From positions 1 to 35,625 of the forward strand of contig JAOUMO010000003.1 in the NCBI GenBank assembly GCA_029881425.1: 35,625 nucleotides of DNA, read 5' to 3'. This document shows, one piece after another, positions 29,739-32,784 of the stretch; position 1 is the first letter of the stretch, and the number at the start of each line of letters is the position of its first letter. Under the pieces are notes generated by a model that saw only the letters and a list, made by a program, of their open reading frames with translations, was not told the origin of the DNA and ran no database searches. The position numbers were made by a program, and so were the translations under genes. The DNA comes from Gammaproteobacteria bacterium (GTDB lineage Bacteria; Pseudomonadota; Gammaproteobacteria; SZUA-229).

Positions 29739-30149
29739 ATGAATTCCACTATTGAGGCAACGATTAAATTTTCATTCAAAGGCGAAAACTTTGACCTGTG
29801 CGAAACCCTGGATCTCGATGCGATAATGACGTCAACCGGAAAATTACCTGACCTTCACTTACAGCTTGCCCGTGCCAATAACATCGACACCTACTCATAC
29901 ATGTACGACGCCATGGAGTCATACCCAATAGTCTTTAGAAACCCTACGGGACTAGCCTGCTCTTTTCTGGATGACACCCGTTTTGCAATAATAGAGTTTG
30001 AACAGGCCTGGAACAACCAGGAAATTGATCAACTCATTGATGGCATTGCAAAAAAACACCTGGACAAAATACCTGCCGACATCCAGCTCAATATCAAGCT
30101 TGCCTTACTCGATGCCTACAACCTGGGAAAATCATCCCGGCAAACATAA
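29739..30149 (+). CDS. Hypothetical protein
   Basis: 136 aa ORF with plausible start and non-random composition; family not recognised. Confidence 0.6.
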   Translation: MNSTIEATIKFSFKGENFDLCETLDLDAIMTSTGKLPDLHLQLARANNIDTYSYMYDAMESYPIVFRNPTGLACSFLDDTRFAIIEFEQAWNNQEIDQLIDGIAKKHLDKIPADIQLNIKLALLDAYNLGKSSRQT

Positions 30150-30182: not shown

Positions 30183-31103
30183 TCAGGTTTTTATTTTCGG
30201 CGCCTTATCCAGGATATGTTCACCCTTCTCATAGATGTCCACCGCAGAACCTACAATCAATTCATCTGGCGGTATGGCAATCGCTTTATTCTTATTCGGG
30301 TAATCCAGTTTATTCAGCACAAAACGCATTGCATTTATGCGTGCACGTTTTTTGCAATCGGACTTGACCACGGTCCAGGGGGCATCCGCAGTATCGGTAT
30401 AGAAAAACATGGCCTCCTTGGCCTCGGTGTACTCTTCCCACTTATCCAGTGATGACAAATCAATCGGGCTCAACTTCCACTGTTTCAGGGGATCATGCTG
30501 GCGCCCCTGGAAGCGCCTGAACTGCTCGTTGCGACTCACCGAAAACCAGAGCTTGAATAACGTAATACCACTACGCACCAGCATACGTTCCAGCTCGGGC
30601 GCCTGTCGCATAAATTCCAGGTACTCACCGGGCTTGCAGAACCCCATTACACGCTCGACACCAGCGCGGTTATACCAGGAACGATCAAACATGACGATTT
30701 CACCCTTACTCGGCAGGTGACGCAAATAACGCTGGAAATACCACTCGCCCTGTTCCAGTTCACTCGGCTTTTCCAGCGCAACCACGCGTGCTCCACGCGG
30801 GTTCATATGCTCCATCATGCGTTTAATCGTACCCCCCTTACCCGCCGCGTCACGGCCCTCGAAAAAAATCAGCACGCGCTGCCCGGTCTCCTTCACCCAG
30901 CCCTGCATTTTTAAAAACTCGATCTGCAGCTCTGTTTTTAAGCGCTCATATTCCCCCCGTTTCATTTTCGTTTTATAGGGGTAATTGGCATCTGCAAATA
31001 TTTTTCGTTTATCCAGCCGATCAACAACATCGGAACCGGCCAGTTTCTGGTCTTTTCTATCGGCTGAAATTTTTGGCATACTGAAATTTACGTCCTTACT
31101 CAT
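30183..31103 (-). CDS. ppk2: Polyphosphate kinase 2
   Basis: RVLIFFEGRDAAGKGGTIKRMMEHMNPRGARVVALEKPS, VMFDRSWYNRAGVERVMGF, KLWFSVSRNEQFRRFQGRQHDPLKQWKLSPID. Confidence 0.95.
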   Translation of the reverse strand: MSKDVNFSMPKISADRKDQKLAGSDVVDRLDKRKIFADANYPYKTKMKRGEYERLKTELQIEFLKMQGWVKETGQRVLIFFEGRDAAGKGGTIKRMMEHMNPRGARVVALEKPSELEQGEWYFQRYLRHLPSKGEIVMFDRSWYNRAGVERVMGFCKPGEYLEFMRQAPELERMLVRSGITLFKLWFSVSRNEQFRRFQGRQHDPLKQWKLSPIDLSSLDKWEEYTEAKEAMFFYTDTADAPWTVVKSDCKKRARINAMRFVLNKLDYPNKNKAIAIPPDELIVGSAVDIYEKGEHILDKAPKIKT

Positions 31104-31184: not shown

Positions 31185-31604
31185 TTATGGTGCATCAACA
31201 TACAATACAGACCCTGGTGTAATACGGTATTTTGGCCCCTTCAAATCCAGCTCGGTCTTACTGCCAGCGATCACCCGACCCTGTAAGTCAAACCGGGACT
31301 CTACACAGGCAGATTTGAATTCCTGTTTTTCCTGCTGATACTCAAGCGGGCAACCATAGACAGGATCAATGGCCCAGGCGACATAGTATTGCGTGCCATA
31401 GACCACCACCAGTTTGCGCCGCCCCGCCTGCATATATTTAACCTCGCCGGGCTGCATACTACCCAGCTCGAAACTGTACTGATGGCTTTCACCTGTATCC
31501 GGGCCCAGCATCAGGCCGCTCAAAAAAACATACATCAGCCAGGCCAGCGCAAAGCCTGCCATCAATTTTAAAACCACACGAAGTATTTGTTTTGTATCAC
31601 TCAT
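31185..31604 (-). CDS. Membrane-anchored Rieske-like protein lacking cluster ligands
   Basis: N-terminal TM; FELGSMQPGEVKYMQAGRRKLVVVYGTQ matches the start of UCR Rieske domains; DPVYGCPLEY...EFKSACVESRFDLQGRVIAG aligns with CTHLGC...CPCHGSxYDxxGRxxxG with the C and H ligands replaced. Confidence 0.62.
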   Translation of the reverse strand: MSDTKQILRVVLKLMAGFALAWLMYVFLSGLMLGPDTGESHQYSFELGSMQPGEVKYMQAGRRKLVVVYGTQYYVAWAIDPVYGCPLEYQQEKQEFKSACVESRFDLQGRVIAGSKTELDLKGPKYRITPGSVLYVDAP

Positions 31605-31638: not shown

Positions 31639-32784
31639 ATGCCTGAATTTTCCTGCCTGCCACCCCTTTCACTTTATATCCACATCCCCTGGTGTGTGCG
31701 TAAGTGCCCCTATTGTGATTTTAATTCCCATGCGGTGAAGCACGAGATTCCCGAGTCACAATATATCGACTGCCTGCTAAATGACCTGGAACAACAGTTG
31801 CCCGGCATCTGGGGGCGACGACTCAGCTCCATCTTTATCGGTGGCGGTACACCTAGCCTGTTTTCTGCGGAGGGCATTCATCGCCTGCTCAGTGGCATAC
31901 GCGCCCGCATGCAAACCGTGGCTACCATGGAGATTACGCTGGAGGCCAACCCCGGCACCTTTGAACAGGAAAAATTCAATGGTTTTTATGAGGCGGGCAT
32001 AAATCGACTGTCCATCGGCATCCAGAGTTTCGATAGCGATAAGCTCAAACGCCTTGGACGGATACACGATGGTAGAGAGGCAATCCAGGCAATAGAGACG
32101 GCACGAAAGGCCGGCTTTGAAAATATTAATCTCGACCTGATGTTTGCCCTGCCAGAACAAACCATAGAACAGGGACTGGCTGACTTACAAACTGCAATAC
32201 AGCTCCAGCCTTCACATATTTCCTGGTACCAATTGACGATCGAGCCCAATACTTATTTCTATACTCACCCACCGGTGACCCCCGATGACGAGCTCAGTTT
32301 TGAATGTCAGCTACAGGGCCAGGCACTACTGGCGTCTGCCGGCTATGCCCAATATGAAATTTCTGCCTACGCCCGTAACGGCCAACAGTGCAAACACAAC
32401 CTGAACTACTGGGAATTTGGTGATTACCTTGCCATAGGCGCCGGCGCACATGGCAAGATTAGCCGAGCCGATGACCAGAGCATCCATCGCTACTGGCAGG
32501 TTCGTAAACCTGAAGACTATATGGACGCCACACTGCGCACAGCGGGTAAAGAAATTCTCAGTGAGAAGGACAGGGTTTTTGAATTTATGCTGAATGCCCT
32601 GCGCCTTAAACAGGGCTTTGATCTCGAACTGTTTGAAAACCACACCGGCCTGTCGAGAAAATTGATTGAGGCGGATTGCGCCACTGCGATAGATAGCGGA
32701 CTACTCACGCAACAGGGCAACCGACTGCATGCTACGGACCGGGGCTACCTGTTCCTGAATGAGCTGATTAATATGTTCAGTTAA
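31639..32784 (+). CDS. hemW: HemW-type radical SAM protein (formerly annotated as HemN-like)
   Basis: PPLSLYIHIPWCVRKCPYCDFNSHAV, FIGGGTPSLFS, RLSIGIQSFDSDKLKRLGRIHD. Likely start at 31639 or 31627 (ORF from 31603). Confidence 0.93.
   Translation: MPEFSCLPPLSLYIHIPWCVRKCPYCDFNSHAVKHEIPESQYIDCLLNDLEQQLPGIWGRRLSSIFIGGGTPSLFSAEGIHRLLSGIRARMQTVATMEITLEANPGTFEQEKFNGFYEAGINRLSIGIQSFDSDKLKRLGRIHDGREAIQAIETARKAGFENINLDLMFALPEQTIEQGLADLQTAIQLQPSHISWYQLTIEPNTYFYTHPPVTPDDELSFECQLQGQALLASAGYAQYEISAYARNGQQCKHNLNYWEFGDYLAIGAGAHGKISRADDQSIHRYWQVRKPEDYMDATLRTAGKEILSEKDRVFEFMLNALRLKQGFDLELFENHTGLSRKLIEADCATAIDSGLLTQQGNRLHATDRGYLFLNELINMFS

Follow-up and report, generated by a model that had tools for sequence, protein, structure and literature searches.

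Can a protein keep the Rieske fold, lose every residue that holds the [2Fe-2S] cluster, and still be of use to the cell, and if so, what might it do? This question is raised by an open reading frame of 139 aa near the end of the window, by which we mean the whole stretch of 35,625 nucleotides that was analysed. In UCR-type Rieske proteins the cluster site is made of two boxes, CTHLGC and CPCHGS, in which the first Cys and the His of each box bind the cluster and the remaining Cys pair forms a disulfide. A sequence-only reading of the window had claimed that the product of this frame is a Rieske-fold protein with altered boxes, whose gene shares its strand with ppk2, lies upstream of it and diverges from hemW. 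The gene was found at exactly the position given there, and its neighbours are as described: it lies 82 bases upstream of ppk2, both on the minus strand, and its start is 34 bases from that of hemW when hemW begins at the ATG supported by its homologues (MPEF...). The mechanical ORF call puts the hemW start at 31603, where it overlaps that of the ligandless gene. ppk2 is taken here as a neighbour, a functional link to the ligandless gene being at most a possibility. Between a DTW-domain gene and ppk2 the window also holds a 136-aa ORF without a Pfam match (29739-30149).

Table 1. Features of the ligandless Rieske locus in the window
Feature	Position	Strand	Basis
Ligandless PetA (Rieske) paralogue, 139 aa	31185..31604	minus	ORF; TIGR01416 E=8e-5; AF2 pLDDT 91.7; Foldseek to Rieske proteins; homologues
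N-terminal membrane helix, about residues 12-32, after the motif R9-V-x-x-K13-L-M, no twin arginine	31509..31571	minus	helix 3-32 in model; motif conservation
Former cluster box 1, CTHLGC to D80-P-V-Y-G-C85	31350..31367	minus	alignment with 66 canonical PetA
Former cluster box 2, CPCHGS to S98-A-C100-V-E-S103	31296..31313	minus	alignment with 66 canonical PetA
ppk2 (polyphosphate kinase 2), downstream neighbour on the same strand	30183..31103	minus	PF03976 E=9.5e-102; TIGR03707
hemW (heme chaperone), divergent neighbour	31639..32784	plus	TIGR00539 E=3.5e-122

The predicted structure bears out the proposed Rieske fold. An AF2 model built from an alignment of the window protein with the named-locus proteins (mean pLDDT 91.7) shows one N-terminal helix, residues 3-32, followed by a beta head with the sandwich and cluster-loop subdomain of a PF00355-like domain. 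When this model was searched with Foldseek, the top matches were all Rieske proteins at a probability of 1.00, and the TM scores to soluble Rieske domains were roughly 0.5-0.7. A full-length member from Ectothiorhodospira mobilis was modelled at a pLDDT of 90.8; its matches include the Rieske subunit of Pseudomonas aeruginosa bc1 (8smr_C, E=1.7e-18) and T. tepidum PetA (7yr9, TM 0.91 over that chain, by target length).

Could the two boxes have been paired by eye through chance, in a protein that is not Rieske at all? The window protein has no match in Pfam, its Rieske model included, and the ligandless members have none to that model; a PDB search with the single sequence was weak. However, common ancestry with PetA is detectable by sequence as well as by Foldseek. 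The NCBIfam PetA model TIGR01416 is matched by the window protein alone at E=8e-5 (22.7 bits, below the curated cut-off of 97.4 bits; the true petA of the same genome scores 244.6 bits) and by 32 of 36 ligandless members, the best at 1e-30, while a profile of the ligandless family retrieves from the PDB, at 2.4e-41, the Rieske subunit of P. aeruginosa bc1, so that the profile searches proposed as a check came out in favour of a Rieske origin. These TIGR01416 and PDB profile matches rule out an artefact of chance or of the eye, which we consider next to impossible, and the protein is almost certainly a ligandless Rieske paralogue of PetA. Neither Pfam nor NCBIfam contains a model that describes the family.

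In the window protein the loss of the ligands is complete. In an independent alignment of 67 ligandless and 66 canonical proteins, with duplicates removed, the letters in the CTHLGC and CPCHGS columns of the window protein were the same as those paired by eye: in the first box the ligand Cys has become Asp80 and the ligand His Val82, in the second they have become Ser98 and Val101, and Cys85 and Cys100 are retained. None of the residues that ligate a Rieske [2Fe-2S] cluster, a pair of Cys and a pair of His arranged as CxH and CxxH, is left, and the xFDxxGR motif said to remain is present after the second box as R-F-D-L-Q-G-R. The proposed test on homologues gave the same answer. Both disulfide Cys are found in 67/67 ligandless proteins and a ligand Cys in 0/67; in 66/67 the four former ligand sites, corresponding to 80, 82, 98 and 101, are free of both Cys and His, the exception being a lone His in one protein (locus L049). 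The canonical set reads C-T-H-L-G-C and C-P/A-C-H-G-S with nearly no exceptions. The earlier picture of a disulfide-stabilised, cluster-free Rieske scaffold is thus supported by the fold, by the conservation of the Cys pair and by a normal petA-petB in the same genome, and we infer that the protein has no cluster in vivo and that Cys85 and Cys100 form a disulfide.

What has replaced the ligands differs among lineages. At the first ligand Cys position stand G, S, D, A or P. D predominates in place of the first His (40/67) and of the second ligand Cys (49/67, otherwise E, P, S or A), and R in place of the second His. The frequency of Asp at the first His and second Cys positions could be taken to mean that another metal or cofactor occupies the old cluster site, and Zn can bind canonical PetA there (PMC10492824). 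In PetA, however, Zn is held by the two ligand Cys, which are missing from 67/67 ligandless proteins, and the residues vary from D/V/S/V in the window to D, D and R elsewhere with no constant set of four ligands, making this a very unlikely alternative. We also noted a coupling between D/E in place of the first His and R/K in place of the second (40 proteins with both, 4 with D/E only, 0 with R/K only and 23 with neither). A salt bridge in place of the cluster was nevertheless rejected as a candidate, as only two independent pairs are supported, which is not significant, and the window lineage has V and V.

The Cys pair is the sole invariant feature of the former cluster site, and exactly two Cys occur in the head of 65/67 ligandless proteins. 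It is conceivable that the protein is a periplasmic thiol-redox sensor or switch, in which Cys85-Cys100 would open and close with the periplasmic redox state and the helix or a partner would relay the signal. The same disulfide is nonetheless structural in every canonical UCR-type Rieske protein, so that its retention is expected without any switching; moreover, the cytoplasmic tail is very short and no conserved gene for a signalling partner was found among the loci compared. We therefore regard a switch as unlikely, though less so than another metal at the site.

The ligandless family is old and conserved across the Gammaproteobacteria. We collected 67 distinct homologues from at least 17 gammaproteobacterial families. 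A single-sequence scan of the named genomes found no relative; relatives came by way of kinship genomes and profiles. In the family of the window, as defined in the manner of GTDB, a clear member was present in 8/54 genomes and 5/14 genera, and a profile of these eight members retrieves ligandless proteins in many other gammaproteobacterial families, along with normal petA, including that of the window's own genome. Another scan of named genomes yielded 41 ligandless members, whose hosts include Ectothiorhodospira mobilis, E. haloalkaliphila, E. marina, E. shaposhnikovii, many Thioalkalivibrio and Granulosicoccaceae, with cultured Ectothiorhodospira and Thioalkalivibrio among them. Of 369 genomes sampled evenly over the class, at least 26 carried the gene, in about 18 families, one partly masked; this count is a lower bound, the weak matches having been read only in part. 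At the level of the phylum, the best matches whose sequences were inspected were canonical PetA only, and ligandless proteins outside the Gammaproteobacteria are possible. In one GTDB family of another class of the same phylum (f200), many PetA-like matches contain one in-frame stop inside the profile match.

Maximum-likelihood trees, read as unrooted and with no root inferred, separate ligandless from canonical proteins by one branch with a support of 100/100. When the tree was rebuilt without the 12 box columns the same split was recovered at 100/100, which disposes of a long-branch or ligand-column artefact as its source. To our knowledge all other Rieske electron carriers possess the ligands, and for this reason the simplest reading of the trees would be that PetA was anciently duplicated once, that the cluster was lost once, and that the gene then spread and disappeared again from some lineages.

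The ligandless proteins have longer branches than canonical PetA, that is, they evolve faster, and within the window's own family the gene is patchy, as a decaying pseudogene copy of petA might be. Against decay stand the intact ORFs of 67 distinct homologues, the invariant Cys pair, and a motif peculiar to the family in which one Lys is conserved at 96%. In 14 close pairs dN/dS was 0.05-0.33, indicating purifying selection; this rules out the pseudogene reading, to which we attach hardly any probability.

That motif stands at the start of the helix. It has the form R/L-[VALITSMG]-x-x-K-[LVAIMY], or R-V-x-x-K-L type, and occurs in 57/67 ligandless proteins vs 1/66 canonical ones. The Tat motif RRx[FL][LMVI] shows the opposite distribution, with 61/66 canonical vs 9/67 ligandless proteins; the N-terminus of the window protein, MSDTKQILRVVLKLM, has no RR and lacks the twin-arginine signal anchor of PetA. 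Canonical Rieske proteins use Tat, being folded around their cluster in the cytoplasm, and loss of the Tat motif is what loss of the cluster predicts. Export of Rieske proteins by Tat has been described (PMC6256036). The core of the fold, YDxAGRV...NLxVPxY, is retained in the ligandless set. The Pro-loop, PAP in the canonical set (66, 66 and 64 of 66), is gone: its first P is present in 10/67 ligandless proteins and its second P is most often R. The Pro-loop is part of the contact with cytochrome b, and without it the surface by which a Rieske protein docks has probably not been preserved, judging from these alignments.

The window's own genome encodes a normal petA, which the sequence-only reading had named as something to look for; the full gene adjoins petB on another contig (C203), and petB and petC are not neighbours of the ligandless gene in the window. 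Among 33 genomes searched as hosts, one of which (G412) has no confirmed ligandless gene, 30 have cytochrome b. The exceptions are G033, where petA is present and the assembly is broken; G239, which is 86% complete and whose sister G343 has bc1; and G184, which is 95% complete, carries the ligandless gene (locus L042) and gave neither petA nor petB in our searches, reflecting either a gap in the assembly or a role independent of bc1. In the even sample petA occurs in 24/26 hosts vs 262/343 other genomes, a slight excess (one-sided Fisher p=0.04, without phylogenetic correction).

The genes around the ligandless gene vary with the lineage, and a comparison of the loci found no constant operon or signalling partner. 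hemW adjoins it divergently in 6/8 genomes of the window's family, the window included; in other lineages its neighbours are yajQ, rsmJ, DUF423 or cyaY, and elsewhere there are dnaQ/rnhA-like, ycgL-like or transporter genes, names assigned from the look of their sequences. With no fixed operon partner, the context gives no direct link to bc1. At three loci a short, conserved, unannotated ORF of about 107 aa lies divergently beside the ligandless gene (L044 1124-1447, L046 2079-2549, L049 1125-1457), on the yajQ side in L044 and L049, and contains the motif GGMTPxGxxxxDAWxFGLxPExxxCxGW. In genome G005 the ligandless gene is convergent with genes that resemble cytochrome oxidase subunits III/IV (NorE/NorF-like by reading; L005 1-1731), a possible respiratory link suggested by adjacency.

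The origin from PetA, the overall shape shared with it and the co-occurrence of bc1 in most hosts would all suit a competitor or regulator of the real Rieske protein, which would take the site of PetA on cytochrome b and tune bc1 down. This reading is doubtful, more so than a thiol switch: with the Pro-loop PAP lost and the helix-start motif changed, neither known contact surface looks preserved, and one host may lack bc1 altogether.

We consider it fairly probable, taking the statement as a whole, that the family is an ancient, cofactor-free side branch of PetA with a structural or assembly role. In this proposal a copy of PetA would have kept its architecture, with one N-terminal helix, a hinge and a periplasmic Rieske head, while all four residues that bind the [2Fe-2S] cluster were lost, as were the Pro-loop and the Tat signal. 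There would be no cluster to insert in the cytoplasm and therefore no further need of Tat, and insertion would probably follow the Sec/YidC route usual for signal-anchor proteins. A disulfide between the two remaining Cys would hold both loops of the former cluster site in place. Electron transfer of the Rieske type would be impossible for such a protein, which would most likely work by binding other proteins, whether to help in assembly, to lend stability or as an accessory. Speaking against the proposal are the lack of a fixed operon partner, the host G184 with neither petA nor petB, the weakness of the association with bc1, and the lost Pro-loop. The more specific role, one at a respiratory complex of the inner membrane, be it bc1 or a partner, is a reasonable possibility, held with less confidence than the proposal as a whole.

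No published description of a cluster-less PetA family was found in the literature searched. What is new here is a family derived from PetA, anchored at its N-terminus and gammaproteobacterial, for which there is no Pfam or NCBIfam model. Relatives of iron-sulfur proteins that lack the cluster are rare and informative, as they separate the role of the fold from that of the cofactor, and the present family arose from bc1's own catalytic Rieske subunit and has been maintained by selection in many families of Gammaproteobacteria, cultured strains among them. It may represent an unrecognised component in the biogenesis of bacterial respiratory complexes and offers a ready target for knockout. It is also a hazard for annotation: a protein that matches a PetA profile and lacks the ligands should not be entered as an electron carrier of the Rieske kind.

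With PetA of cytochrome bc1 (TIGR01416; 8smr_C, 7yr9) the ligandless family shares the fold, the arrangement of N-terminal helix and head, the disulfide Cys pair and the YDxAGR and NLxVPxY motifs. It differs from PetA in having no cluster ligands or Pro-loop, in having mostly lost the Tat motif, in the motif of its helix, in lying outside the petABC operon, and in forming a separate clade (100/100). Cluster-free Rieske folds as such are already known. NirD, the small subunit of the assimilatory nitrite reductase, has a Rieske fold without cluster ligands, and its structure (PDB 3c0d) ranks 39th among the Foldseek matches of the window model. Unlike the ligandless family, NirD is soluble, has NirB as its partner and has no membrane helix; the window protein has its N-terminal helix and no nirB neighbour in the window, and no Pfam or NCBIfam match to NirD was obtained with it or with the ligandless members.

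PSB33/TEF5 is a second known case (PMC12164590). Chloroplast PSB33/TEF5/LIL8 likewise has a membrane-anchored, Rieske-like head without cluster residues and exists beside a normal Rieske protein; it assists PSII assembly, TEF5 of Chlamydomonas being an assembly factor for an electron-transfer complex (PMC12164590). It differs in having one or two C-terminal membrane helices after the Rieske-like domain, where the window protein has its single helix at the N-terminus (residues 3-32), and in being restricted to the green lineage (PMC12164590); the likeness drawn here is one of description. In the complex I ferredoxin bridge of plants, mFDX-like is a paralogue of an iron-sulfur carrier that has lost its cluster and is now a structural subunit of complex I (PMC10069907); its fold is that of a ferredoxin and it is eukaryotic, making the analogy one of history only. 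TEF5/PSB33 and mFDX-like are the nearest functional models, and it is on this ground that we favour a structural or assembly role. Tentatively, then, the ligandless protein could be a subunit of the respiratory chain of Gammaproteobacteria that has so far escaped description, without a cofactor and with an accessory or assembly role, and thus a bacterial counterpart, made from PetA, of the cluster-less Rieske assembly factor of PSII.
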